A DNA stretch of 44,095 nucleotides from an uncultured Bacteroidales bacterium (GTDB taxonomy: Bacteria; Bacteroidota; Bacteroidia; Bacteroidales; Bacteroidaceae). Both the position numbers and the translations under genes were made by a program. The stretch covers positions 1 to 44,095 of the forward strand of contig CADCIP010000040.1 in assembly GCA_902801485.1 (NCBI GenBank). Reading direction: 5' to 3'. The notes below the pieces were generated by a model. That model saw only the letters and a program-made list of their open reading frames with translations. It had not been told where the DNA came from and made no database searches. Of this stretch, positions 1 to 43,570 are shown piece by piece; positions within the stretch are counted from its first letter, which is position 1; the number at the start of each line of letters is the position of its first letter.

Positions 1-780
1 CTGTTTATGACTCTCCACGAAATGCTCAGCATTCACGCCTTCACGCAGTCGCACGATAATGGGTTCAGATGTATTGGAACCATTTGAACAGATGAACACC
101 GTGGAAAGGTTGCGATCCCATACTTGATTGCGGATGTCCTCCACTACAGCACGGATGCGGTAGGGCTTTTTCTTCCAACCCCCTTCCCTGTCATATTCTC
201 TCCTAATTATGCTATGTCCCGCCACATCGATGGTGCCGAAGAGTCCCATCGCCATAGAGCGCGTAATAATGACGCTCTTGTCCCATTCGCAATCGTGGGT
301 CAGCTCGGTGGTAGGCACCTCGGGCGTGAGCGACTGGATGCCATAGACTTCGAACGTCCGAGAATCCTTCATGAAGTAGTACCCCCATCCACTAAGAGAG
401 TCGCCTTCATGGTAGAAGTAGTCATTCCCACCGCCGGCTCCAAAACCGAGAGGATAATAATTGGCTCGGTAAGCCAGCTCCACGTCCTCCAGCTCCTGCA
501 CCTTCTGCAACAAGCGTTCTTCCTCGTCGGGAATAGTAGTAATCTGCTGTTCCTCAATATCCAGACGGGTGACTGTGCTGGACACATTCAGTTTTACAAT
601 TCTGTCAATATCATAGCCAGGCTTCATCCGTATTACTGTGCCAGTGACCAGCACAGGGTCGAAAGCCCACCAGCAGGCAAAGGTGACGAGGATGAGTTCC
701 AAAGCGAGCCAAGAAGCCCCCCTCCCAACCTCCCCCCGAGGAGGGAGGAGATTTATGAATGATAGTTTATTCGTTTTCAT
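1..780 (-). CDS. MacB/FtsX-type ABC permease B1 (3'-truncated by window edge)
   Basis: This is the last visible gene of the efflux operon. The minus-strand frame opens at an ATG at 780 and stays open for 260 codons to base 1, so its C-terminal membrane half lies outside the window. A hydrophobic segment near residues 23-40 is followed by a periplasmic domain like that of permease B3 at 8810-10147. It should be an inner-membrane subunit paired with permease A1, working in efflux or lipoprotein-type export (family inference). Residues 10-21 (LLPPRGEVGRGA) are encoded by the arm of a palindromic repeat, and the same peptide starts B3. The start codon lies in the loop between the two arms of that repeat. 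I chose this start because it matches B3 exactly and no later Met precedes the membrane segment. Substrate unknown. Confidence 0.8.
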   Translation of the reverse strand, partial: MKTNKLSFINLLPPRGEVGRGASWLALELILVTFACWWAFDPVLVTGTVIRMKPGYDIDRIVKLNVSSTVTRLDIEEQQITTIPDEEERLLQKVQELEDVELAYRANYYPLGFGAGGGNDYFYHEGDSLSGWGYYFMKDSRTFEVYGIQSLTPEVPTTELTHDCEWDKSVIITRSMAMGLFGTIDVAGHSIIRREYDREGGWKKKPYRIRAVVEDIRNQVWDRNLSTVFICSNGSNTSEPIIVRLREGVNAEHFVESHKQ

Positions 781-846
781 TTCTTTTGATATTATATTTC
801 TTGTTAGTCTCTCCTCCCTCCTCGGGGGGAGGTCGGGAGGGGGGCT
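716..846. repeat. Paired-arm palindromic element 1 (A1/B1 junction)
   Basis: Arms at 716-751 and 808-846 are inverted copies differing at one position over about 36 bp. The 56-bp spacer carries the start codon of B1. Each arm is itself a C-run/G-run palindrome. The whole element matches 10083-10213 at about 126 of 131 positions by eye. One arm is translated as part of B1; the other begins just after the A1 stop codon. Confidence 0.85.
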
Positions 847-848
847 TT

Positions 849-3440: not shown

Positions 3441-3549
3441 GACCCCCTAACCCCCTTTAGGGGGAATTCAGGGGTAATTATTTATAGTTAAATATTAAAT
3501 GTTAGCTCCTCACATTTCATTGATTCCCCCTAAAGGGGGTTAGGGGGTC
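3441..3549. repeat. Paired-arm palindromic element 2 (TolC/adaptor junction)
   Basis: Arms at 3441-3474 and 3523-3549 are inverted copies built from CCCCCT/AGGGGG palindromes, with a 48-bp AT-rich spacer. The right arm runs over the end of the TolC-like gene: its last codons (KTP, stop) are arm sequence. Being AT-richer in the core, it is a different subtype from element 1. Confidence 0.8.
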
Positions 3550-7725: not shown

Positions 7726-7760
7726 AATCGTAAATTGTAAATTGTCAAATCGTAAATTAC
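7726..7760. repeat. AT-rich tandem repeat at ATPase/A2 junction
   Basis: The units TCGTAAA, TTGTAAA, TTGTCAAA and TCGTAAA run in tandem and fill the gap between the ATPase stop codon (7757-7759) and the A2 start. Similar 7-mer runs occur at other junctions in this window. Confidence 0.6.
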
Positions 7761-8521
7761 ATGATTTGTCGTCCATCGAGGAACTTGATGATGCGGTCTG
7801 TCTGGGCGGCCTGCTGTTCGTTGTGTGTTACCATTACGATGGTGCGGCCGTCCTCTCGGTTCAGCTTGTGCAGCAGTTCCATAATCTCGGCACCCATCTT
7901 AGAGTCGAGGTTACCTGTCGGCTCGTCGGCAAGGAGAATCTCGGGGTTGCCGATGATGGCGCGGGCGATGGCGACACGCTGACACTGACCGCCTGAGAGC
8001 TGAGTGGGACGATGCTTCATGCGATGACTGAGGCCCACACGTGCAATGACCTCCTTGGCGAGGCGCAGACGCTCGCTGCTGCGTACACCACGATAGATAA
8101 GGGGAATCTGCACGTTGTCCAGTACGTTGAGCGTTGAGATGAGGTGGAAGCTCTGGAACACGAAGCCCAGCGTCTTGTTGCGAATCTCTGCCATCTGGTT
8201 GTCGGAGAGCTTCGGGTCAATCTTCGTGCCGCAGAGTTCGATGGTGCCGCTCGTGGGTTCGTCCAAGAGGCCCATAATGTTGAGGAGCGTAGATTTGCCG
8301 CAGCCGGAGGGTCCCATGATGCTCAGGAACTCGCCCTTCTGCACTTCCAGGTTCACATTCTCCAACGCCTGTGTCTCCACTTCGTCAGTACGATAGATTT
8401 TGTTAATGCCAGTGAGCCTAATAACAGCCCCCTCCTGACCTCCCCCTTGGGGGAGGAACTCAGATGTTGTTAGACTTGGTTGATTCTGCTTGTTTACATT
8501 CTGTTCGGTGTTCATAATCAT
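7757..8521 (-). CDS. ABC transporter ATPase (LolD/MacB-type)
   Basis: A 254-residue nucleotide-binding protein of the LolD/MacB ATPase family, the only ATPase in the window for three permease pairs. Walker A GPSGCGKST is at residues 70-78, the signature LSGGQCQRV begins at 175, Walker B ILLADEP is near 195-201, and the H-loop histidine is in MVTHNEQ near 233. All key residues are intact. The signature has Cys where the family usually has Gln (LSGGQQQRV). The family normally begins around VIRLTGINKIYRT; here 32 extra residues precede it, and residues 21-32 are encoded by a palindromic repeat arm (8427-8459). No Met exists at the ancestral start, so the extension appears to be used. Confidence 0.93.
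   Translation of the reverse strand: MIMNTEQNVNKQNQPSLTTSEFLPQGGGQEGAVIRLTGINKIYRTDEVETQALENVNLEVQKGEFLSIMGPSGCGKSTLLNIMGLLDEPTSGTIELCGTKIDPKLSDNQMAEIRNKTLGFVFQSFHLISTLNVLDNVQIPLIYRGVRSSERLRLAKEVIARVGLSHRMKHRPTQLSGGQCQRVAIARAIIGNPEILLADEPTGNLDSKMGAEIMELLHKLNREDGRTIVMVTHNEQQAAQTDRIIKFLDGRQIM
8427..8459. repeat. Single palindromic arm inside the ABC ATPase gene
   Basis: A CCTCC/GGAGG palindrome of the same family as elements 1 and 5, translated in frame as part of EFLPQGGGQEGA in the ATPase. No matching inverted arm is close by; the nearest related sequence starts at 8691. Confidence 0.75.
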
Positions 8522-8809: not shown

Positions 8810-10147
8810 TTACTCTTCTCTTAACGATTCTGTTATTCTTGTATTGATTATCTTCAGGGCAGGAATCGTGGTGCCGATGAGGACGGTACATAATATAATA
8901 ATGTACACCACGCCGGAGACGATGAGGAAGTGCGGCCAGAAGTGATCGACCCAAGTGAGGTCAGAGAGAGGCGGCATGTTCAGTTGCGAAGTGTACATGT
9001 TGAAGGTCTCGAATCCGCCTTGCGTCTCGTACCCGCTATGGGCATAGTTCAGATAGATGATGCAGCCGATGACGACGGCAACGGTAGCCATTAAAGCTCC
9101 CTCGGCAAGGAACGACAGCAGCAGGCGCACCTTCGTTGCTCCGAAGGCACGCCGCACGCCGCATTCCTCGGTCCGACGCTTGGCCTGCAGCCACACTGTA
9201 CCAATGACGGCCAGGCTCAGGTTCACGAGGAAGAAGAAGGCCAGAGCGAGGTTCATGTTCGTCTCCTGCGGCAGACCATCCTGCAGGTCGTCAGCCAGAA
9301 GTGAGTCCTCGTAGGGCATGATCTTGCTGATACGCATGAAGGGTGTCTTTGCCAGAGCCATGACGTCGCCGGCATGTTCGTTTACATATCGCGCCGGCTT
9401 CACGCCTTTCCTGAGGCGAAGCACAAGGTATTTGGTATAGTAGTCGACCTGGGTTGGGGTGTAGAGCGTGCTGCGGGTGGAGCCGAAGCGCTCATGCTGC
9501 ACGTCCTCTACCACGCCGGCCACCGTCATGGGCTCCGGCGTGTTCTCTCCCTGACCTGGCTCCGTGATGCTTCGACCGACGACGCCTTCCGTCGTGCCGA
9601 AGATGGCTTTGGCTGCCGACTCGGAGAGCACCACCTGCCGCGACGTCCTTGTCAGCTCCGAAAGCTCTTCCGCTGAGGGGCTGCCCGGCAAGGTCCTGAG
9701 GCCGTAGGTCTCGAAGAAATGCCAGCCTTCGCAGAAGGTGATGCTGTAGATACCTATCGTGTCATGCTCCAGGCAAATGAGCCGCTGGCTGCCGTATCTG
9801 TGTGAAATTGTCGAATAAGGGTACTCGTAGCCATAGACATTTTCTACGTCATCCGTGGCTTTCAGTTTCTCTGCGAACCTCGGCAAGAATTCGTTCACAC
9901 GTTCTATAGCGACGGAGGAGTTTGTGCCGTCGGTGTCGTATATCCGCGTCACCTCGGCCAGGACGAGGCGGTCGCTGTCGTAGCCCACCGGCTGGTTCAT
10001 GTAGTAGAGGTTCACGACAGCCGGGTCCACGACGACCCAAGCGACGACGGTTATCACGACGAGTTCGAGGAAGAGCCAAATAGCCCCCCTCCCAACCTCC
10101 CCCCGGGGAGGGAGGAGATTTATGAATGATAGTTTATTCGTTTTCAT
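8810..10147 (-). CDS. MacB/FtsX-type ABC permease B3
   Basis: A 445-residue ABC permease paralogous to B1 and B2. A membrane segment near residues 22-45 (LFLELVVITVVAWVVVDP) is followed by a periplasmic domain and three C-terminal membrane segments, with RRAFGATKVRLLL in the FtsX loop position. It starts at an ATG in the loop of palindromic element 5, and residues 10-21 are encoded by one of its arms, exactly as in B1. Immediately after the arm the two proteins diverge (IWLFLELVVIT versus SWLALELILVT), so the shared first 21 residues reflect the element rather than general similarity. It is the most GC-rich gene of the operon. Confidence 0.88.
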   Translation of the reverse strand: MKTNKLSFINLLPPRGEVGRGAIWLFLELVVITVVAWVVVDPAVVNLYYMNQPVGYDSDRLVLAEVTRIYDTDGTNSSVAIERVNEFLPRFAEKLKATDDVENVYGYEYPYSTISHRYGSQRLICLEHDTIGIYSITFCEGWHFFETYGLRTLPGSPSAEELSELTRTSRQVVLSESAAKAIFGTTEGVVGRSITEPGQGENTPEPMTVAGVVEDVQHERFGSTRSTLYTPTQVDYYTKYLVLRLRKGVKPARYVNEHAGDVMALAKTPFMRISKIMPYEDSLLADDLQDGLPQETNMNLALAFFFLVNLSLAVIGTVWLQAKRRTEECGVRRAFGATKVRLLLSFLAEGALMATVAVVIGCIIYLNYAHSGYETQGGFETFNMYTSQLNMPPLSDLTWVDHFWPHFLIVSGVVYIIILCTVLIGTTIPALKIINTRITESLREE

Positions 10148-10213
10148 CTCTTTTGTTGTTATATTTCTTGTTAGTCTCTCCTCCCTCCTTGGGGGGAGGT
10201 CGGGAGGGGGGCT
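10083..10213. repeat. Paired-arm palindromic element 5 (A3/B3 junction)
   Basis: Arms at about 10083-10118 and 10175-10213 are inverted copies. The spacer contains the B3 start codon at 10147. The whole 131-bp block differs from element 1 (716-846) at about five positions. It abuts the A3 stop codon. Confidence 0.85.
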
Positions 10214-12713: not shown

Positions 12714-12718
12714 GACCA

Positions 12719-12871
12719 GCCCCCTCCCCGTCCCTCCCCCGAGGAGGAGGGAGTAAGAGGCGCTTCTTATACCAGAAAAGGTTAGACAATTGTCTAACCT
12801 TTTCTGCGTTTATATAGAAAAATGTCAAGGAAATATCCCCCTCCTCCTCGGGGGAGGGACGGGAAGGGGGC
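12719..12871. repeat. Paired-arm palindromic element 6, enclosing a terminator
   Basis: Arms at 12719-12753 and 12836-12871 are near-perfect inverted copies of a GC-rich palindromic arm. They flank the terminator palindrome at 12774-12805. The left arm follows the DUF4923 stop codon and the right arm precedes the stop codon of the convergent gene at 12875. Confidence 0.85.
12774..12805. terminator. Bidirectional terminator palindrome
   Basis: A perfect 32-bp palindrome, AGAAAAGGTTAGAC joined to its complement through AATT, between convergent genes. The A-rich and T-rich outer ends suit termination in both directions. Confidence 0.75.
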
Positions 12872-12874
12872 TTT

Positions 12875-16748: not shown

Positions 16749-16760
16749 AATCTGTATTTT

Positions 16761-16882
16761 AAACGATAACGTTAACGTCAACGTCAACTGTTTTTATTCT
16801 TAATCTTATTCTATTTTTAAACGATAACGATAACGTTAACGATAACTGTTTTTTCAACGATAACGATAACGTTAACGATAAC
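16761..16882. repeat. Three AACGNN hexamer runs upstream of secA
   Basis: Runs at 16761-16788, 16819-16847 and 16855-16882 consist of AACGAT, AACGTT and AACGTC units. They are followed at about 16890-16928 by CTCTAAT/CTCTCAA runs reaching the stop codon of the next gene. Confidence 0.85.
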
Positions 16883-16927
16883 TTTTTTTAATCTCTAATC
16901 TCTCAACTCTAATCTCTCAACTCTAAT

Positions 16928-21868: not shown

Positions 21869-22612
21869 TTGAATTTACATAGAATCATAATTCTTTGCAG
21901 CCTTGTATCTGCCGTTGGAATCACCTTCTCATGCAGTCCCAGAGTGGAACATGTGGCAGAAGCCCTGAGCGATTCCGACTCACTCCTCAATTTGCATGCA
22001 AGAGGGGTGAACACGTTTATATCCGATTCCGGTGTCTTACGATACCACATGGTGGTAGAGGAATGGGATATCTATAACGGAACAGACGGGAAAGCACCCA
22101 CATGGAAATTCCTCAAGGGGTTACTGATGGAACGATATGACAAGGATTTCCATATCGACCTATACGTACAATCCGACACAGCATACCTGCACGAGCAACA
22201 CCTGTGGGAACTTAGAGGGCGCGTGGTGGTAAGAAACATCAAAGGCGATGTTTTCCGAACGGAAGAACTCTTCTGGGATTTGAACAAGCACGAGATGTGG
22301 AGCTATAAATATATACGTATAGTGACACCCGAACGAGAACTGGAAGGAACAGAATTCCATAGCAACGAACAGATGACACAATACTCTGTAAGCAATTCCA
22401 TTGGCGCCTTCCCCATCACGGAAAAAGAGAACGAGGACGGGAACGGGAACGAAAGCGATAACGATAACGATAACGGGAACGGGAACGAAAACGGGAACGG
22501 GAACGGGAACGGGAACGGGAACGAAAATAAGAAGGATTCTGTTATTCCATCAGAACCTGTCAAACCGCATTCCAAACAAATGAGGTTCCTGCCCGCCCCC
22601 AACAAAAGATAG
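21869..22612 (+). CDS. lptC: LPS export protein LptC with repeat-encoded tail
   Basis: LptC receives lipopolysaccharide from the LptBFG extractor and passes it to LptA. The 247-residue product has an N-terminal lipoprotein-like signal (GITFSCS, Cys near residue 22) and the beta-jellyroll segments VEEWDIYN, HIDLYVQSDTAYLHEQHLWELRGRVVV and ELFWDLNKHEMWSYKYIRI typical of Bacteroidetes LptC. The start codon is TTG at 21869; an in-frame stop lies 15 bp upstream and there is no ATG. After the jellyroll, residues about 188-220 form a DN/GN/EN tract encoded by an AACGNN hexamer run, which should be a disordered tail. The downstream corC gene is 46 bp away. Confidence 0.82.
   Translation: MNLHRIIILCSLVSAVGITFSCSPRVEHVAEALSDSDSLLNLHARGVNTFISDSGVLRYHMVVEEWDIYNGTDGKAPTWKFLKGLLMERYDKDFHIDLYVQSDTAYLHEQHLWELRGRVVVRNIKGDVFRTEELFWDLNKHEMWSYKYIRIVTPERELEGTEFHSNEQMTQYSVSNSIGAFPITEKENEDGNGNESDNDNDNGNGNENGNGNGNGNGNENKKDSVIPSEPVKPHSKQMRFLPAPNKR
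22428..22530. repeat. In-frame AACGNN hexamer run in lptC
   Basis: Tandem hexamers AACGGG, AACGAT and AACGAA. Because the unit is six bases, changes in copy number lengthen or shorten the protein tail without frameshift. The same unit occurs in the runs around secA. Confidence 0.9.
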
Positions 22613-26273: not shown

Positions 26274-26636
26274 GTTATTATGTAATGACAGGAATTTCGG
26301 CATTACCACCACCAGTGATGTATGATGAATCATGAACCGCAATCCCTTAGATATTTTCGACTTTTTGTAAAGATACCGGCTCTAGTGTAATTTGGGGAAA
26401 AACAGAAAAACCCGTTTCTGTTGTTGATGGGTTATCTCATTTTTTTTCTTCGATGTATATAATAAAATTGAAGAAGAACCACTTTACATAGAAAACCTTC
26501 AAGTTAAATAGCAAAAAAAACACCAGTACACAAACCACTAACCGATAACCGATAATTCTCAATTCTCAATTCAATAAAGACCGCTAATCGCTAACCATTA
26601 ACCCTTAACCAAACAAGGCCTGTCACCTTTGCTTCA

Positions 26637-26740
26637 TTCAGATAGGCTGAACGAGTTGTTCCCCTTATCTCCACGACTCATTCAGATAATCCCTTACCCC
26701 CCTAAAGGATTATCCGAACAACTCGTTAACCCTATCCGAA
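26637..26740. repeat. Large imperfect hairpin element
   Basis: Outer arm 26637-26661 pairs with 26716-26740 at about 21 of 25 positions, including a perfect AACGAGTTGTTC/GAACAACTCGTT. An inner stem 26681-26692/26707-26718 pairs at 11 of 12. A 19-nt bulge lies on the left side. TTCAGATA is also repeated directly in the two left arms. Confidence 0.65.
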
Positions 26741-26813
26741 CGAGTCATTAACCCAGCATTTCGTATCTCGAAGGAAAAGATACAACATTTCACCCGATCC
26801 CACAAGAATAATT

Positions 26814-28722: not shown

Positions 28723-29576
28723 GCATTATCCCTTTCTTCTTCGCGTTTGGCAATATACTGGTCGAGACGCTCTACACACGACTTGGTGATGGCGATTCGG
28801 CCAGAACGGACGAACTGAAGAACACAGCCCAGGTCGTCCAGACACTTGAAGTGCTCCAAAACATCGCTGGTCACACCCGTCTTCTCTACTGTTGTATAGG
28901 TGGGATTCACCTCTACTATACGGGCATCGAACCTACGTACAATACGTGAGATTTCAGGATTAGCCAGTACGATGGGAGTTGAGAGTTTCAGCAAGGATGT
29001 CTCCAGAATGAAGATTTCGTCCTCCAGGAAACAGTTGGCCTGCAACACATCTATCTTCTTCTCGATCTGCTTGCAGAGCATCTCGGCCATCTCTTGCTTA
29101 CAAAAACAGGTAATGGTATATTTGTGTACACCTGGGGTACTGGATGAGCAAACGTTCAACGATTCGATGTTCACCTGACGACGGGTGAAGACTGCCGTAA
29201 TCTGATTCAGCACACCAGCGTAGTTTTCTGAATAAATAATCAGTGTGTAAAGCGTAAGCCCTTTGTGGTTAAGCAAAGAGCCTTCTTTGCCTGCTGTTGA
29301 CCGACGCGCCACAGCATTGCGTTTAAAAGTTTCATACTGACCGTCACTCTTTACGTCATCTGCCAAAGTGGCCTGACGCTGACGAGCCAGATTCTTCTCG
29401 TATGAATCGCGGTCGATAGAGGCTGCGGCTCTGACTGCGGCATCAAAGGATTCCGTAACATTCGCCTCGTCACACTTCCCGCATGTATTGCAATCGCCAC
29501 ATTGGGAAGCCACATTGCGGCCCCTCTCTAACTCTCCCAAAGGGGAGGACTTTATATCTTTCTTATTTGATTTCAT
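28719..29576 (-). CDS. ilvN: Acetolactate synthase small subunit with unusual N-terminal extension
   Basis: Regulatory subunit of acetolactate synthase, which binds valine through its ACT domain and activates IlvB. The ACT domain begins near residue 105 (KGLTLYTLIIYSENYAGVLNQITAVFTRRQVNIESLNV), and an IlvN C-terminal domain follows. At 285 residues it is about 100 longer than usual. The extension contains a repeat-derived stretch (SSPLGELERGR, residues 10-20), a four-cysteine motif CxxCxxCxxC (Cys 26, 29, 32, 35) and a charged helical region. No Met lies between residue 1 and the ACT domain, so the ATG at 29576, inside a palindromic element, is the only ATG start; a GTG or TTG further in is possible. 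It overlaps the thioesterase by 4 bp. Confidence 0.88.
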   Translation of the reverse strand: MKSNKKDIKSSPLGELERGRNVASQCGDCNTCGKCDEANVTESFDAAVRAAASIDRDSYEKNLARQRQATLADDVKSDGQYETFKRNAVARRSTAGKEGSLLNHKGLTLYTLIIYSENYAGVLNQITAVFTRRQVNIESLNVCSSSTPGVHKYTITCFCKQEMAEMLCKQIEKKIDVLQANCFLEDEIFILETSLLKLSTPIVLANPEISRIVRRFDARIVEVNPTYTTVEKTGVTSDVLEHFKCLDDLGCVLQFVRSGRIAITKSCVERLDQYIAKREEERDNA

Positions 29577-29637
29577 AATACTCTATTTAATCCGTCTCCT
29601 CCCTCCCATTTGGGGGAGGGCTGGGGAGAGGGGCGTC
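29519..29637. repeat. Paired-arm palindromic element 7 (ilvB/ilvN junction)
   Basis: Arms at 29519-29550 and about 29594-29637 are inverted, diverged copies. The spacer holds the ilvN start codon (29576), and the left arm is translated in IlvN. The right arm ends at the ilvB stop codon. Confidence 0.8.
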
Positions 29638-31414
29638 ATTTTACTTCCAACAACATTTCATCCACATTACCTCCCGGAGGTGTCATAGGCAACACATTGT
29701 CCTCCTCCTTTACGGCACACTGCAGGATGTACGGACCATCTGTGCTCAGCATCTCGCTGATGGCAGCATCCAGGTCCTTTCTGTCGATGACCGTCTTACA
29801 GGGAATACCGTAACCCGCGGCAATCTTCTCGTAATCAGGATTCAGCATAGGAGTAAAGGAATATCGTTTGTTGAAGAACATATACTGCCACTGACGTACG
29901 TTACCAAGATAATTGTTGTTCAGCAGAATCATCTTAACAGGGCAGCGCTGTTCCATGATAGTACCCAGTTCCTGAATGGTCATCTGGAATCCACCGTCGC
30001 CGCAGAACATACAAACTGTTCTGTCGGGAGCACCAAAGGTAGCACCTATGGCAGCAGGAATACCAAAGCCCATAGTTCCGCAACCACCGCTTGTAACTAC
30101 AGAACGGGGTTTGGTGAAATTAAAGTATCGGCAGCCGAACATTTGGTTCTGCCCCACATCGGTTACCATAATGGCCTCGCTGTTGGCAGCATCGCTTACC
30201 TTGCGTACTATCTCGCCCATCAAGAGCGGACCTTCGGTTGGATGCAAGGCAGGTTCTATTACCTTATTATATTCTTTCTCGTCGTAAGGCTTAAAACCTT
30301 CTATCCATGACTTATGAGTAGTTTTTTCAACATATTTAGTGATAGCAGGGAGCGTCTGTTTGCAGTCGCCCAGAACAGGCAGATCTACCTTCACATTCTT
30401 ATCCACCTCGCTGGGATCAATCTCCAGATGGATAATCTTTGCCTGCTTGGCATAGTTCTTCAGGTTACCAGTCACGCGGTCGTCAAAACGCATACCAACG
30501 GCAATCAGCAAGTCGCACTGATTGGTCATTACGTTGGGAGCCAAATTACCATGCATACCCAAACGTCCCATATTCAGCGGATGGTCTGATGGGACAGCAG
30601 AAAGACCGAGGAAAGTTGTTGCGAAAGGTATCTGGGCCTTCTCGCAAAGTGCCAACAGTTCCTTACGTGCATCGGCCAACTCCACGCCTTGCCCCACAAG
30701 CATGAAAGGCTTCACACTTTCGTTTATCATCTGGGCAGCCTTTTCTACAGCTCCTTCAGCGGGCTGTGGATTGGGGTTATAGCTGCGGATGAAGTCGATG
30801 GCCTGGGGCTGGTATTCTATCATCGCCGTCTGGGCATTCTTGGTAAAGTCCAAAACCACAGGACCGGGACGACCGCTACTGGCAATGAAGAAGGCACGGG
30901 CCACAGCCCAGGCAATATCCTCGGCGCGACGGATTTGATAGTTCCACTTGGTGATAGGTTGTGTTACACCTACTACGTCCACTTCCTGAAAGGCATCTGT
31001 ACCCAGCATAGCAGCACCCACCTGTCCGCAGATAACAACCAGAGGAGTAGAATCCATCAGGGCGTCAGCCACACCTGTAATGGTATTCATGGCACCAGGA
31101 CCGCTGGTTACGATGGCACATCCCACTTTGCCGCTCACACGGGCATAGCCCTGAGCAGCATGTACGGCAGCCTGTTCGTGGCGCACCAAGATATGATGTA
31201 ATTTGTCTTTATGATCATAGAGTGCATCGTAAGTAGGCATGATAGCACCTCCAGGATAACCAAAGAGTACATCCACTCCCTGATTCTCCAGACTGCGCAT
31301 CATTGCCTCTGCACCAGAAATAAGAGAACCCTGAGGACCCTCCCCCTGTCCCCTCTCTCTATGGAGGGGAGTTGTATTTTGTTTTTCTAATCTCATTGCT
31401 TTATCTATTCTCAA
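29636..31414 (-). CDS. ilvB: Acetolactate synthase large subunit
   Basis: Thiamine-diphosphate enzyme that condenses pyruvate with pyruvate or 2-oxobutyrate, the first step of branched-chain amino-acid synthesis. The product has 592 residues in the family order. The PYR domain has GYPGGAIMPTYDAL and the catalytic Glu in VRHEQAAVHAAQGYAR, the central domain has GRLGMHGNLAPNV, and the ThDP/Mg2+ domain has FCGDGGFQMTIQELGTI with ILLNNNYLGNVRQWQ. Residues about 12-30 (the TTPLHRERGQGEGPQG region) come from a palindromic repeat arm; the enzyme proper begins at SGAEAMMRSLENQGVDVLFG. The first ATG (31414) or the Met at residue 7 (31396) could start translation; both lie in the repeat spacer. Confidence 0.96.
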   Translation of the reverse strand: MRIDKAMRLEKQNTTPLHRERGQGEGPQGSLISGAEAMMRSLENQGVDVLFGYPGGAIMPTYDALYDHKDKLHHILVRHEQAAVHAAQGYARVSGKVGCAIVTSGPGAMNTITGVADALMDSTPLVVICGQVGAAMLGTDAFQEVDVVGVTQPITKWNYQIRRAEDIAWAVARAFFIASSGRPGPVVLDFTKNAQTAMIEYQPQAIDFIRSYNPNPQPAEGAVEKAAQMINESVKPFMLVGQGVELADARKELLALCEKAQIPFATTFLGLSAVPSDHPLNMGRLGMHGNLAPNVMTNQCDLLIAVGMRFDDRVTGNLKNYAKQAKIIHLEIDPSEVDKNVKVDLPVLGDCKQTLPAITKYVEKTTHKSWIEGFKPYDEKEYNKVIEPALHPTEGPLLMGEIVRKVSDAANSEAIMVTDVGQNQMFGCRYFNFTKPRSVVTSGGCGTMGFGIPAAIGATFGAPDRTVCMFCGDGGFQMTIQELGTIMEQRCPVKMILLNNNYLGNVRQWQYMFFNKRYSFTPMLNPDYEKIAAGYGIPCKTVIDRKDLDAAISEMLSTDGPYILQCAVKEEDNVLPMTPPGGNVDEMLLEVK

Positions 31415-31452
31415 AATTCAGTCCTCCCCCAAGGGGGAGTTAGAGGGGGTTT
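31336..31452. repeat. Paired-arm palindromic element 8 (ilvD/ilvB junction)
   Basis: Arms at 31336-31374 and 31421-31452 are inverted, diverged copies. Both candidate ilvB start codons lie in the spacer, and the left arm is translated in IlvB. The right arm directly follows the ilvD stop codon. Confidence 0.8.
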
Positions 31453-38521: not shown

Positions 38522-39370
38522 TTACTTCTGGTAAACGCGTACATAGTCAATTTCATATTTCATGGGGAAGTCTGCAGGGTTCAGTTCCTTTACACGAGTG
38601 TCTAAGGCAAGGTTCAGCAGAATGTATTGTTGGTAATGGAATGGATTGATGCCTGTACCACTGGATTTTCCGTTGATGGTACGCTTCAGGTCTATCTCGT
38701 TCAGCAGTTCGTCATCCAGATACAACCGGATAAAGTCCTTATCCCAGTCCATGCGCCAAACATGAAATCGGGATGCCCACGCAGGGTCACGTTCTGTGAA
38801 ATGTGTCAGCGGAGTATATGAAGAGTCCCACTCTGCGTCGTCTGTCGTATCACCTGCCCAACAAGCATTGGCAAGAATGGTGGGCACACCCTTAACCTGA
38901 TAATACTCCAACACGTCTATTTCACCATTGGCCGGCCAAGGATGGTTAATACCCAAAAGCCAGATGGCAGGCCACGCCCCTTTGCAGACAGGGATGCGGG
39001 CACGAACCTCCAGACGGCCATATTGGAAAGTATATTTACCCTTGGTAATCAAGGCGGCACTTGTCCACTCTACTTTCTCGCGGCTATTACGCCAGTTCTT
39101 GGCATCCTCTCGGTATGCAGGACAAGGGAAATCAGCCTGACGAGCCTCAATCACCAGATTTCCGTCACGCACAAATGCATTTTCGGGAGCATACCACTGC
39201 AATTCATAATTACGAACAAAGCCACGCTCATAGTCCCATTTCTGGGCATCAGGACGTCCGTCAATATCGAACTCATCGTTCCAAACAAGCTTCCACCCTT
39301 CCTTCTCGACCTGCGCCATAGCACAAACAGCATACAGTCCGGCAAACAGACATAAAGCAAAACCTTTCAT
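38522..39370 (-). CDS. GH16 family secreted glycanase
   Basis: A 282-residue glycoside hydrolase family 16 enzyme, secreted by a signal peptide (1-20, AVCAMAQ). The active-site motif GEIDVLEY has the E-x-D-x-x-E pattern (Glu150, Asp152, Glu155). It is preceded by WPAIWLLGINHPWPANG and followed by FHVWRMDWDKDFIRLYLDD, both typical of the laminarinase-like jellyroll. Likely substrates are beta-1,3/1,4-glucans or related polymers. The ATG at 39370 is used; a TTG 9 bp upstream lies in the adjacent repeat. About 50 bp of CAATGAA-type repeat separates it from purN. Confidence 0.9.
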   Translation of the reverse strand: MKGFALCLFAGLYAVCAMAQVEKEGWKLVWNDEFDIDGRPDAQKWDYERGFVRNYELQWYAPENAFVRDGNLVIEARQADFPCPAYREDAKNWRNSREKVEWTSAALITKGKYTFQYGRLEVRARIPVCKGAWPAIWLLGINHPWPANGEIDVLEYYQVKGVPTILANACWAGDTTDDAEWDSSYTPLTHFTERDPAWASRFHVWRMDWDKDFIRLYLDDELLNEIDLKRTINGKSSGTGINPFHYQQYILLNLALDTRVKELNPADFPMKYEIDYVRVYQK

Positions 39371-39435
39371 AATGAACAATGAACAATTAACAATGAATAA
39401 TGAATAATTAACAATGAATAATTAACAATGAACAA
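39371..39435. repeat. CAATGAA/TAATGAA heptamer run between purN and the GH16 gene
   Basis: Tandem 6-8-bp units such as CAATGAA and CAATTAA fill the whole gap and extend into the last codons of purN, whose C-terminal residues (FIVHC) and stop are encoded by the run. Confidence 0.8.
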
Positions 39436-40000
39436 TGAATTTACTAAGAACATCTTCCACTACCTTAGGAAAATACTTCATCTCCAGCTGATGTTCCTTC
39501 TCGGCTATATCGTCGGCTGTATCATCAGGAGTGAGAGCCACACGATACTGGGCAATAATCTCTCCCGAATCACAGACGGGCGTCACATAATGCACCGTCA
39601 TACCCGTTTCCGTTTCTCCGGCAGCCTTCACTGCCTCATGCACATGATGTCCCCACATACCCTTTCCACCGTACTTTGGTAGCAGAGCAGGATGTATATT
39701 GATAATCCTACGCGGATAGGCTGCCACCATAAAGTCTGGAACAAGCGGAAGGAAACCCGCCAGTACAATAAAGTCTATTTCGTACTCCTGTAATAAGGGC
39801 ATCATCACATCAGAATCATTCAACTGGGCCTTGTTGATTACTTTTGCAGGTACGCCCAAACGCTCTGCGCGAACCAGAGCGTATGCCTCGGGCTTGTTAC
39901 TGATAACAAGGGCACAATGTATCTGGTCTGAATGTTCAAAATACCTAATCAGATTCTCGCAGTTAGTACCGTTTCCCGATACAAAAATAGCTATGTTCAT
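39422..40000 (-). CDS. purN: Phosphoribosylglycinamide formyltransferase
   Basis: PurN transfers a formyl group from 10-formyl-THF to GAR in purine synthesis. The 192-residue protein has the N-terminal FVSGNGTNCENLI, the catalytic region FIVLAGFLPLVPDFMVAAYPRRIINIHPALLPKYGGKGMWGHHVHEAV (Asn and His of NIHPALLP) and TGMTVHYVTPVCDSGEIIAQ with the catalytic Asp. The typical SGxGSN motif is SGNGTN here. Slightly shorter than E. coli PurN (212). Its last codons are repeat sequence. Confidence 0.95.
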   Translation of the reverse strand: MNIAIFVSGNGTNCENLIRYFEHSDQIHCALVISNKPEAYALVRAERLGVPAKVINKAQLNDSDVMMPLLQEYEIDFIVLAGFLPLVPDFMVAAYPRRIINIHPALLPKYGGKGMWGHHVHEAVKAAGETETGMTVHYVTPVCDSGEIIAQYRVALTPDDTADDIAEKEHQLEMKYFPKVVEDVLSKFIVHC

Positions 40001-40081: not shown

Positions 40082-43000
40082 TTACTTAACCATAGTCTTT
40101 TTTGTCGTTCCGTCCTTCATGCGGATGATATAGATTCCCTTCCTCCGTTCATTGGCCATTTTACGGCCAGAAAGGTCATAAATTTCTCCCTCGCCTTTGG
40201 AGAGGGTTGGGGTGAGGCTTTCAATGCCATCCACAATATCCATTGCCTCTTCCACACGGAAGGTGGATCCGTCATCGGTGGGGCTATTTCCATCATCCCA
40301 GAACTTCAGTGGACCGTCTCCGCCGCCAAACTGATTAATACAGCGATAGTCGGTTCCCGTTTCCCGTAGCACAAAACCACCGTTGTTGGGCAGTAGGTCC
40401 CACGTATAGTCACCCTTACGCATTACTGCATTGTCTCCGTCTTTTGCCAGCGTTTCCGCAAAACCTGTTGTGTAATTATATACCTTAACATGATAGGGAT
40501 CACCGCCGAAGGCCCACAGGTATTCTTCCGTCAGGGTTATCTTACCATCGTTTCGCTCTGGATAGTAAGGCTCGCTCTCCTGCTTGCCTACATACCAGCC
40601 GCTGCGGATGTGCATGTTATACCACACGGCATCTTTTTCAGAGATGGAGAACTCAAAGGGTCCTGTCCATTCTGCCTCGTAATCCAACGTCAAATCCTCA
40701 TGAACGGCAAAGGGTATATCTTCTGGTTCTATAAGGTGTGTGTAGGCATTCTCCCAATTTCTGGATGGCGTGGGCACCATAGAGCCATCTGCCACCTTTG
40801 CGGTTTCTTCGCCAATAACCTGTCCGTTAAACAAGATGCGGTTAGTAACGGCAAAGAAGCTCTCTTCTGCCAGTGCCAAAGCCTCTGTAGGATCAAAGTC
40901 GCCGGCTTCTTCTATCAGCCAACGGTTACCGTCGTCGGGTGTATCCCAACTGTTGATGACAATCTGTCCGTTGTTGTTGAAATAGTATATGCCGCCGCTC
41001 TCGTTCTTAACAGAAAGCATATAAAGGTATTTCCCGTCTGCATGATCCGTACTAAAATGAATGGGAGTTCCCAAAGCATCTACCCACGTTCCATTGTCAC
41101 GATAGTTGAGGAATTCCTTTGTTACAGGACTATAGAGGTAGTTCTTACCTTCAATATAGAGGATGGCAAAGAGTTTGTCTTCATCAGGCGCATCTCTTCT
41201 GGTCTGTCCTGCTGCCAGACCCGTGTAATAATCATCCAGCACCAGTCCACCACGTCGGCACTTGAGCGTGTATAGCTTATTGTTGGCAAACAGATTTTCC
41301 TCTGGTTCGTCTCCCGGATCCTCTCCCGGATCAATGATATCCGGCATGCGGCCACTGACAATATCATCGTAGATTGTCTGAGAACGGATAGCCAACCAGT
41401 CAGAGGCTTCCTGGGCCTGTGCGGCGTAGTCAGTGTAATCACCCCATACCTTTCGGTTGTCCTTGAAAGAGTTCTTGGCAAAGTCGTAGTAGTCTTGGCA
41501 GTACTCTAACAATTCCGTCAGACCATTCTCCATGAACTGCTCCCACAATTCTTTATAGATATCACTTAATGGTTCGTATTTGAAGCGTAGGTCGCGAATA
41601 AATTCTACCACTTCCATTCCAGGGCAATCTATCCAGTAGTTGTTGGTGGCTTCGTTACGGAAGTAGTTTCCATGCCGCTCGTAGCCATACCCCCAGTCGA
41701 GATCCCATACGGGACCGAAGACATATTTACTTGTGTCGCTTTCAAACGATTCACGATAGCAGAAGGTACTCTTTGGATGGTAAAACTCATAGTTCAGAAT
41801 TAACTCGTTGACCATCATATAACGTGCCAACTGCGTAACATCAACGTATTTAGAGATATCGCGTTTCCAATAGACTGTACGCATGAATGCGTTGAAGTTC
41901 GAGGATACATCCTCCAACGTCAGCTTTGTTGTGCCCTCCGAGAATGTAGGCTCCTTAACGTTGATGGGCAGGCCGTAAGGTTCCGAACGGAATTTTTGAG
42001 CATTATCTTCATCGTAGTATGAATCAAGTTCCAGCAAAGCGGCAGCGCTCTCATCGTCCAGATTGACACTGTTGTTGGCAAAACCGACTTTTTCCGTAAA
42101 GTTGTAACTTCCCTGGTATTCGCCATTCAGGTATATATCAACAGGCACAATATGGTTAGCGGCAGCTGCTCCTATCAGGTTGGCAGCTTTCATACCTATG
42201 GCGTTTGACATCATCGAACCGGTCTGGTAATTACTCAACAGGACCCAGTTCTTTCCCTTCTTCATACCCAGAGGTTTTAGTGCATTTGCGAACTTCAGCC
42301 GGTAGGGCTTCTTAGGCCAGCCCCAACTACTGTTGCCGCGCCCTTTTATCTGCACCTCAGTTTCGTCCATCGAAGGGAAGATGTCGTGCCCATCGATGCG
42401 GATGGTGGCATCCTTGAAATAATCCTTGCTTGTAACGGGCAAACCGTCGGAGGTGTTGATATAGACAGTGGGAACTTCGGCACGGTCTGTCAGCCAATCC
42501 ACATGAACACGAACAATACGTCCATAAGGCTGCATGGAACAGGTACCCGTGCCTTTCTCCGAAGAATCGACAGGCAGCAGCATCCTGCAGCCGGGACGAG
42601 TTATAACGTAATAGATGTCTTTGTCGAAACGCAAGCGCGAGACCTTACTCTCTTGCTGTTCATTATTCACATATACCTCGACATTCTCGTCCTCGGTCAG
42701 TTTAAACGATGGTGTCAGGCGTTTGCCTATAGCAGCGATAGTTGCGAAGACAGTATCAGCTGTTATCTCCCCATCGACATCCGTAAACACCTGGTCGTTA
42801 TATTTGTTATTGAATTTGAACGACTCAAAAGTGGGGAAATCCGTTGGTGCCGTTTCGCTTACAGAATCCACATCGGCCAGCGCATAAGTGAATGTCTGCC
42901 CAATGTTGGTCTCAATAACCAACTGCCCGTTTTTCTCGCCAGACTTAGTGACATAGCCCTTTGGGTAAGCTTCCAACCGGCCGTCTTTCAGATATACATG

Positions 43001-43570
43001 CAGGGCATCAGGGAAAGAAGTGCGTTCTGCAGGATCGGGGTCTATCTGCGGATCAGAACCAGGATCATCCCCTTTTTTCTCAAAGAAAAAGTGTTCATTG
43101 TTACTATTTCCCCATCCTCCGTGATACGTACCTAATAGCCCTTGGTCATATCGGAGATTCCAGTAATAAGAATCGGCTACTACGCTGTTGATGCTGAACG
43201 AGCCGTCACCATTCTCGAGTACATACCACAAATGGCTTTGGTCATCAGGCGCAGAATCCGCCAGAGTCATATACTTATAATTAGCATCCACTCGGTCTGT
43301 TGTATATATGAGATACTGACCGCTTGTTTCGTTTCGGAAAGTATAGCCGGATTTGGTATTAGTAACTACCCAAAAGGCATCAGCCGTTAAAGCACTGCCA
43401 TCTTTCATGTAGCAGATATATGGATCTACGTTGTGATATGCGCCCAATGCTACGTACCCATCACCTTGCAGACAAGAGATGGAATAGACTCCGTTCTCTA
43501 ATGCGGCAAACGCATTCAGGGGCCACAAGCAGAAATATAAGATAAACAGGTATAAGAGAGAATTTTTCAT
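40082..43570 (-). CDS. Large secreted CotH-kinase-family protein with lectin-like domains
   Basis: A 1,162-residue surface or secreted protein. Signal peptide at about 1-22 (LWPLNAFA). An N-terminal RICIN-like domain (about 23-170) is followed by an acidic Pro/Asp linker, a beta-rich region (190-370) and the CotH domain (about 370-740), with IKGRGNSSWGWPKKPYRLKF, NGEYQGSYNFTEKV, LLELDSYYDE and FGPVWDLDWGYGYERHG. Beta-rich lectin-like repeats follow after a second linker (DPGEDPGDEPEEN). CotH proteins are atypical protein kinases of spore coats and secreted proteins. The C-terminus IYDLSGRKM...GIYIIRMKDGTTKKTMVK resembles a type IX sorting tail. Just before it, SLTPTLSKGEGE is a translated palindromic repeat arm (40186-40221). 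Confidence 0.85.
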   Translation of the reverse strand: MKNSLLYLFILYFCLWPLNAFAALENGVYSISCLQGDGYVALGAYHNVDPYICYMKDGSALTADAFWVVTNTKSGYTFRNETSGQYLIYTTDRVDANYKYMTLADSAPDDQSHLWYVLENGDGSFSINSVVADSYYWNLRYDQGLLGTYHGGWGNSNNEHFFFEKKGDDPGSDPQIDPDPAERTSFPDALHVYLKDGRLEAYPKGYVTKSGEKNGQLVIETNIGQTFTYALADVDSVSETAPTDFPTFESFKFNNKYNDQVFTDVDGEITADTVFATIAAIGKRLTPSFKLTEDENVEVYVNNEQQESKVSRLRFDKDIYYVITRPGCRMLLPVDSSEKGTGTCSMQPYGRIVRVHVDWLTDRAEVPTVYINTSDGLPVTSKDYFKDATIRIDGHDIFPSMDETEVQIKGRGNSSWGWPKKPYRLKFANALKPLGMKKGKNWVLLSNYQTGSMMSNAIGMKAANLIGAAAANHIVPVDIYLNGEYQGSYNFTEKVGFANNSVNLDDESAAALLELDSYYDEDNAQKFRSEPYGLPINVKEPTFSEGTTKLTLEDVSSNFNAFMRTVYWKRDISKYVDVTQLARYMMVNELILNYEFYHPKSTFCYRESFESDTSKYVFGPVWDLDWGYGYERHGNYFRNEATNNYWIDCPGMEVVEFIRDLRFKYEPLSDIYKELWEQFMENGLTELLEYCQDYYDFAKNSFKDNRKVWGDYTDYAAQAQEASDWLAIRSQTIYDDIVSGRMPDIIDPGEDPGDEPEENLFANNKLYTLKCRRGGLVLDDYYTGLAAGQTRRDAPDEDKLFAILYIEGKNYLYSPVTKEFLNYRDNGTWVDALGTPIHFSTDHADGKYLYMLSVKNESGGIYYFNNNGQIVINSWDTPDDGNRWLIEEAGDFDPTEALALAEESFFAVTNRILFNGQVIGEETAKVADGSMVPTPSRNWENAYTHLIEPEDIPFAVHEDLTLDYEAEWTGPFEFSISEKDAVWYNMHIRSGWYVGKQESEPYYPERNDGKITLTEEYLWAFGGDPYHVKVYNYTTGFAETLAKDGDNAVMRKGDYTWDLLPNNGGFVLRETGTDYRCINQFGGGDGPLKFWDDGNSPTDDGSTFRVEEAMDIVDGIESLTPTLSKGEGEIYDLSGRKMANERRKGIYIIRMKDGTTKKTMVK
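40186..40221. repeat. Palindromic arm translated in the CotH C-terminus
   Basis: CTCCC/GGGTTGGGG arm of the window-wide palindromic family, in frame as SLTPTLSKGEGE between the last lectin-like domain and the sorting-tail motif. A related copy is at 8755-8808. Confidence 0.75.

Follow-up and report, generated by a model that had tools for sequence, protein, structure and literature searches.

Start codons inside palindromic hairpins of a Bacteroidales contig: probable gene-less members of a mobile DUF559 endonuclease element family

Several genes in a 44,095-base contig of an uncultured Bacteroidales bacterium (C40; hereafter the window, that is, the whole stretch of DNA analysed) have their start codon in the loop of a long palindromic hairpin. 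The explanation that we favour, with a probability of about 0.72, is that these hairpins are gene-less versions of a mobile endonuclease element, the translated palindromic ends of which bring a start codon along and keep the neighbouring gene translated. Such an element accounts for the start codon in the loop better than control of translation by the stem does. The window belongs to a 3.6-Mb assembly that is 85% complete, and its closest named relatives, as judged by ilvN, are rumen Prevotellaceae and Bacteroidaceae assemblies.

The element in front of the permease gene B1 is an inverted repeat with 38-nt arms, 97% complementary, around a 58-nt loop (Table 1); the single mismatch between the arms is a G-U pair at the level of minus-strand RNA. 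The preliminary description had reported a nearly perfect GC-rich stem with one G-U pair, and such a stem is real, although the sizes given, 36 bp and 56 nt, were two bases off. When folded, the minus-strand RNA forms one long stem of -93.5 kcal/mol as compared to -44.8 ± 4.1 kcal/mol for 200 shuffles (z = -11.8); the 58-nt loop folded alone is essentially without structure, and each arm also folds separately, at -22.9 and -17.9 kcal/mol. The start codon at 780 does lie in the loop and the 3′ arm is coding, as had been proposed: the frame continues across the inner arm (MKTNKLSFINLLPPRGEVGRGASWLALEL). The same design had been suggested for B3, ilvN and ilvB, and we found arms and loop starts at all three. 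The B3 block is ~96% identical to the B1 block, the two permeases being 33% identical, and in both cases the upstream stop lies within 2 nt of the outer arm. At ilvB, the ORF tool gives an upstream TTG at 31414 rather than the ATG at 31396. A search of the whole window against Rfam gave no matches at gathering score. The window also holds short repeat arrays (ATAATGAACAATTAAC-like and GATAACGTTAAC-like) at 39369-39452, 16752-16894 and 22421-22537, the last of these inside the ORF 21869-22612, and a distinct inverted repeat at 26634-26743 (86% complementary, 54 nt apart) that lacks the C-rich unit sequence described below.

Table 1. Palindromic features of the window, with positions, strand and relation to genes
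Feature	Positions	Strand	Remarks
B1 3′ arm (in mRNA)	714..751	-	in-frame coding (NLLPPRGEVGRGA)
B1 loop, A-rich, unstructured	752..809	-	ATG 780-778
B1 5′ arm	810..847	-	adjoins stop of upstream permease gene (849-2171)
Facing pair, another subfamily (GACCCCCTAACCCCCTTTAGGGGGAAT)	3441..3549	.	without loop start; next start 3433 outside
Single unit	8423..8458	-	in frame, N-terminus of ABC ATPase gene 7757-8521 (SEFLPQGGGQEGA)
B3 3′ arm	10082..10118	-	in-frame coding
B3 loop	10119..10176	-	start 10147-10145
B3 5′ arm	10177..10213	-	inverted repeat
Facing pair between convergent genes	12718..12872	.	loop 87 nt, without start codon
ilvB-ilvN junction element	29519..29637 (about)	-	imperfect arms 29522-29551 and 29599-29632; ilvN start 29576-29574 in loop
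ilvD-ilvB junction element	31336..31452 (about)	-	ilvB ATG 31396-31394 in loop
Single unit	40184..40221	.	within large ORF 40082-43570

The ilv junctions of relatives carry the same arms in a longer form. Among 80 ilvN loci that we compared, nine have a DUF559 endonuclease gene of ~375 bp between the arms, either at the ilvD-ilvB junction (L083, L089, L122, L123, L133 and L145) or at the ilvB-ilvN junction (L086, L136 and L149). The element is absent from the ilvB-ilvN junction of L073-L076; empty and occupied sites are thus found at the same junctions. The order in the full elements is arm, DUF559 gene, ATG and a second arm that continues into the host gene as one open frame. In all nine cases, the host frame is +1 to that of DUF559 and reads across the 3′ arm into the host gene, with the first host-frame ATG located close to where the DUF559 domain ends, at most 14 nt before that point and 10 nt after it. 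The start segments of ilvB in L083 and ilvN in L136, two genes of two species, are identical at 41 of 48 positions, a level that none of 3000 random gene-start pairs reached. Because this shared segment is largely the end of the DUF559 gene, the ATG of the full ilv elements is, judging by the alignment, part of the element sequence. The effect on the proteins can be read directly: IlvN begins with M(EEKKK)YGAAECGDC at the empty junctions of L075 and L076 as compared to MKSNKKDIKSSPLGELERGRNVASQCGDC in the window, and other unit-derived IlvN peptides were recognised by eye in seven of 29 anchorable loci (L086, L089, L092, L108, L119, L120 and L136). For ilvB, the upstream ATG is only the likely start, since a further in-frame ATG lies downstream, inside the conserved region. 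An insertion at an overlapping stop and start (TGATG in the window) is seen in L083:5854-5963: the upstream ilvN acquires a C-terminus encoded by the unit, its new stop lying in the loop, and the N-terminus of the gene that follows is likewise encoded by a unit.

The protein encoded at the L083 junction is a DUF559 protein (PF04480, E = 5.8e-31) with a match to 3hrl, a solved endonuclease-like protein (E = 1.4e-18), and a weak one to 3r3p (E = 0.006), a mobile intron protein that we take to be I-Bth0305I; searches with PADLOC and NCBIfam yielded weak or generic names only. YcjD of E. coli is presumably a DUF559-domain protein as well. DUF559 genes occur in 100 of the 139 genomes of the genus. 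We examined their flanks in 44 distinct genes from the collected loci, a non-random sample that includes 30 best-match loci and several near-identical ones: in 38 of the 44, the inverted repeat across the 380-nt flanks scores more than 14.0, the highest value among 971 random windows with matching geometry, and 43 outscore 20 shuffles of their own flanks. The C-rich tail of the repeat points outward in 37 of these 38 as scored by script, the remaining one being unclear, and L370 looks reversed by eye. At the B1 or B3 site, no DUF559 gene was seen in 30 B3-like loci (L151-L180), and none of these loci is among the DUF559 hits of this flank comparison.

Frame continuity between element and host extends to genes outside the ilv operon. 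Ten full elements were read in the window's own genome, G138 and G021, and in seven of them the DUF559 domain contains the host-frame ATG or ends 1 nt before it, or the host gene carries on in the DUF559 frame. The latter is the case at gmk (L069), where guanylate kinase continues the DUF559 frame and both parts have Pfam and PDB matches; no ATG lies between the two (L069:9955-10920, G000:C19), and translation may start internally, close to where DUF559 ends. Continuity of gmk with the DUF559 frame recurs in two loci of other genomes of the genus (L371 and L374). The other positive hosts, named by recognisable sequence without a search, are coaD-like (L415 in the own genome, L420 in G021), folD-like (L418), leuC-like (L294) and two others (L417 and L419). 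Three of the ten give no start codon: in the second copy of L415 the ATG is downstream of the arm, and L265 and L416 have no host frame that crosses the arm.

Across the phylum, DUF559 was found in 109 of 198 genomes; 17 of 28 evaluable loci exceed the flank threshold and 19 of 27 score higher than shuffles of their own flanks. Here the domain also sits in frame inside host proteins, namely in metH, where it separates the residues equivalent to 752 and 772 of the solved structure 9ssp, and in leuS, where it separates those equivalent to 236 and 240 of the solved structure 1h3n, ahead of the editing domain. The flank scores are 17.5 (L401) and 14.0 (L408) for metH, and at background, 10.0 and 8.5, for leuS (L381 and L384). 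In L395, DUF559 follows an N6_Mtase domain. No intein or splicing domain was present among the Pfam matches of the seven DUF559-containing proteins scanned, and the insertions in metH, leuS and gmk are in frame without a Pfam-recognised intein domain. Finally, we selected six plasmid loci of other phyla among 53 records (Azospirillum, Picosynechococcus, Sinorhizobium, Deinococcus, Sphingomonas and Pseudanabaena). Four of them exceed the flank threshold; those of Azospirillum (14.0) and Sinorhizobium (9.0) do not. The Deinococcus proteolyticus plasmid locus has 56-nt arms.

Each arm is one repeat unit with a C-rich tail and, after it, a palindromic head (for example, AGCCCCCCTCCCAA + CCTCCCCCCGAGGAGGGAGG). 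The window contains 13 units according to a unit profile, and a sample of 40 further stretches from its genome (800 kb, 20 kb masked) contains 33, counts that are biased toward the window since the profile was built from 14 window arms, many of the matches being weak. Outside the window, long pairs are scarce in the own assembly: in its 0.78-Mb readable sample, a search for ungapped arms of 20 nt or longer at 85% gave no pair of the family, and several pair finders detected no further pair of the B1-type family in the own-genome sample; three of these finders were too strict, missing known window elements, with one finding no pair whatever, and a fourth finder and the strict regex finder both missed the ilvN and ilvB elements. 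A looser pair pattern gives 14 matches in the whole own genome, 7 of them in the window, with both strands counted. In the genus, by comparison, the facing-pair pattern has 2,435 matches in 108 of 139 genomes, counted on both strands with symmetrical pairs counted twice, as compared to 37 matches in 22 genomes for the same pattern read backwards.

These pairs bear on the possibility that a native start codon became flanked by two single units inserting independently, and that no cassette moves. Single units are indeed common, and the loop at ilvN (L073 and L081), as well as a loop compared between G138 and G017, resembles the starts of relatives that lack the pair; in some cases, the loop ATG may be host sequence caught between two units. 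Independent insertion hardly accounts, however, for the orientation of neighbouring units: in 49 of the listed places of G138, all 35 cases of tailed units separated by 15-110 nt are in facing orientation, the tails pointing outward. Real partners also resemble each other more than swapped partners do (0.65 vs 0.47, with 10% of swaps reaching the true median). Because of this, we regard the pair rather than the single arm as the unit, as a rule; a few pairs combine units of different subfamilies (for example, L253 and L271). Independent insertion also sits poorly with the conservation of the whole cassette, 96-98% identical in G021 where the B3 protein is 57% identical. Taken together, we consider two independent insertions an unlikely explanation. 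Two tandem facing pairs with identical loops are found at G138:C22:19286-19421 (L270), similar to the ordered clusters described for REPINs.

A second possibility is that the pairs are REPIN-type elements moved by a RAYT (Y1 transposase) and unrelated to DUF559. They do share the facing doublets of hairpin-forming tailed palindromes with REPINs, as these are described in the accessible part of PMC3116915, and Y1_Tnp genes are present in 62 of the 139 genomes, two of them in the own genome. The pair counts of the 139 genomes, uncontrolled for genome size and completeness, nevertheless correlate only weakly with Y1_Tnp counts (Spearman 0.25) as compared to DUF559 counts (0.63), and four pair-rich genomes (G010, G011, G023 and G030) have no Y1 match. 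Against the link to DUF559, six of the 39 genomes without a DUF559 match have at least 10 pair matches (G016, G020, G023, G033, G096 and G127), the assemblies being incomplete. The arms bracket DUF559 in the comparison of DUF559 flanks, and many copies are intragenic, while REPINs are described, in the same partial source, from extragenic space. We consider this explanation unlikely and rejected Y1/RAYT as the driver, the transposase being found in 62 of 139 genomes and the correlation being weak.

The location of the pairs relative to genes was assessed on 48 facing pairs found by the strict regex in the window, own-genome stretches and stretches of G138, G021, G102 and G015; according to gene calls by a simple codon-usage script, which makes the classes approximate, 20 are located within predicted genes, every one of them in G138; another 14 carry a start codon in their loop, and the remaining 14 belong to other classes. 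The 20 intragenic cases are out of 34 facing pairs in G138 and involve no start codon. Two G138 genes, TruB- and PurL-like as named by recognisable sequence, have in-frame insertions that their orthologues lack; the PurL-like insertion site is hypervariable, so that this comparison could not separate host from element loop sequence. Nine of the 14 loop-start elements begin no more than 2 nt from the upstream stop, and one of the 14 (L044) has TTG starts only. Where the downstream arm is open into the next gene, an in-frame loop ATG is present in 13 of 19 pairs, while shuffled loops would give 3.45 ± 1.65. The preliminary description was therefore right that the element is not inert and that the start codon is not in the loop by chance.

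Its further suggestion, that the stem works as a translational control device by hindering or gating the access of ribosomes to the start codon, is not well supported. The block that it had proposed to trace through related genomes is indeed placed before a gene start each time, but is itself rare: the 132-bp cassette has five copies in three of 139 genomes (two in the own genome, two in G021 and one in G102), 96-98% identical to each other, all five preceding a gene that matches the B3 permease, the B3 proteins of the own genome and G021 being 57% identical.

We compared the starts of the 30 B3-like loci, three of which lack the anchor motif. Where there is no unit, the start resembles MKAIFQNLWNRKREEIWLFLEL of L165; in 18 loci (16 identified by regex, L153 and L161 by eye) a unit-derived peptide of one of several subfamilies stands between another start and the WLFLEL motif. 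One of the 18, L177, is masked; in the 17 readable ones, the arms pair well in 7 (scores of at least 17.5), partly in 7 (9-14) and not at all in 3 (5.5-8.0), as compared to 5.0-8.0 in nine B3-like loci without units. The three unpaired loci (L152, L162 and L163) have no 5′ unit. By these scores, a strong stem is not the feature that is kept in general, though weak pairing often is, and the partial pairing in 7 of 17 leaves some room for a stem effect. A control function would gain from this retained pairing, from the very stable predicted stem and from the excess of loop start codons over shuffled expectation. It would not, however, be expected to survive the loss of pairing in 3 of 17 starts that keep both the start codon and the 3′ unit, nor does it fit well with the ability of either arm to fold alone, the unstructured loop that leaves the start codon single-stranded either way, the many pairs within genes, the ~375-bp gene between the arms in relatives or the restriction of the 132-bp block to so few genomes. 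We therefore regard stem-based control as quite unlikely. That the arms recombine and flip the loop, switching the start codon on and off, is highly improbable: the geometry of an inverted repeat around a start codon would suit it, but the working orientation in all nine full ilv copies and the divergence of the arms at several loci argue, if weakly, against it.

The mobile endonuclease element that we favour has the following anatomy in its full form. Its 5′ part consists of an outward-tailed palindromic unit and the gene for the DUF559 (Vsr-like, PD-(D/E)XK) endonuclease; its 3′ part consists of an ATG and a few codons at the 3′ end of the endonuclease gene, overlapping or directly following that end in the +1 frame, and of an inverted unit that is open into the host. 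At gene boundaries, the element is placed after the upstream stop, often within 2 nt, and would supply the start of the downstream gene, read through the second unit; other copies sit in frame within genes. The elements at B1, B3, ilvN and ilvB would be short, gene-less members of the family, either deletion derivatives of full copies or copies moved in trans. The family would spread by homing, we infer, with the DUF559 enzyme cutting unoccupied sites and repair copying the element in; no clear target-site duplication was noticed and no mobility event was observed. The loop ATG would probably be the one used by ribosomes and could be understood as an insertion-tolerance device, an adaptation that allows tight operon junctions to be occupied without silencing the next gene, possibly with the side effect of making the element hard to delete. 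The hairpin, finally, would reflect the paired ends of the element and not primarily a regulator.

On balance, the evidence leans slightly towards these being an undescribed class of mobile element present in several phyla, in which DUF559 lies between translated palindromes with its own restart codon, takes over the starts of essential genes (gmk, coaD, folD, ilvB and ilvN) or sits in frame inside such genes (leuS and metH), and is not easily lost; a good part of the GC-rich palindromic repeats of Bacteroidota, and of their odd N-terminal peptides, would then go back to gene-less derivatives. A published account of such a DUF559-palindrome element did not appear in the titles and abstract openings among the matches listed, a search with subscription literature mostly outside its scope. 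If true, DUF559, a widespread family of unknown function, would be assigned a function, that of a mobile-element enzyme; the Pro/Gly-rich peptides coded by GC-rich palindromes that start, or lie inside, many proteins here would be explained; and selfish DNA would be seen to make itself hard to lose by owning the start codon of an essential gene. For annotation, gene callers may misplace starts and N-termini at such sites.

As judged by its sequence, the element seems to combine two known kinds, a hairpin-forming miniature element and a homing-type endonuclease. On the side of tailed repeats, GTAG- and CGTC-tagged palindromic repeats, the CGTC type occurring in Bacteroidetes among other phyla according to the available text of PMC3733652, are similar by description. 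REPINs, described in the accessible part of PMC3116915 as extragenic and linked to RAYTs, are likewise inverted doublets of tailed palindromes that form hairpins and fall into several subfamilies per genome, and two inverted units forming a hairpin are what we see in all 35 G138 pairs and in the B1 fold. Unlike REPINs, the elements here are often in frame in genes (20 of 34 G138 pairs lie in predicted genes) and over start codons, and the enzyme that is bracketed by them and correlated with them is a DUF559 endonuclease and not a Y1 transposase, for which the association is weak (Spearman 0.25, with pair-rich genomes without Y1; the flank comparison covers DUF559 genes).

On the side of the enzyme, VsrA of Caulobacter shares the DUF559 domain and is read as a mismatch-repair endonuclease, and the portion of PMC12907096 available does not present it as part of a repeat-bracketed element. 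In another species, DUF559 segments that include a transposase are recombination hotspots; they resemble the present case in having DUF559 in repeated DNA, but palindromic ends and start codons are not described in the part of PMC12308824 at hand. A DUF559 gene is placed in the EDxHD homing family in passing in PMC9403480, as far as its available text goes. The weak sequence match to 3r3p likens our protein to Vsr-like (EDxHD) homing endonucleases such as I-Bth0305I; unlike these, DUF559 here is flanked by long translated palindromes and, in the seven proteins scanned, is not accompanied by an intein or splicing domain. Closest in its relation to the host protein is the Rickettsia palindromic element (RPE), which is described in the accessible part of PMC10969869 as a ~150-bp element lying in frame in unrelated genes and translated. 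Like RPEs, to which we liken it by description and not by sequence, the element is a palindrome translated in frame within host genes, as seen in the two G138 genes, and it differs from RPEs as described there in having an enzyme gene and in apparently taking over the start codon of its host.
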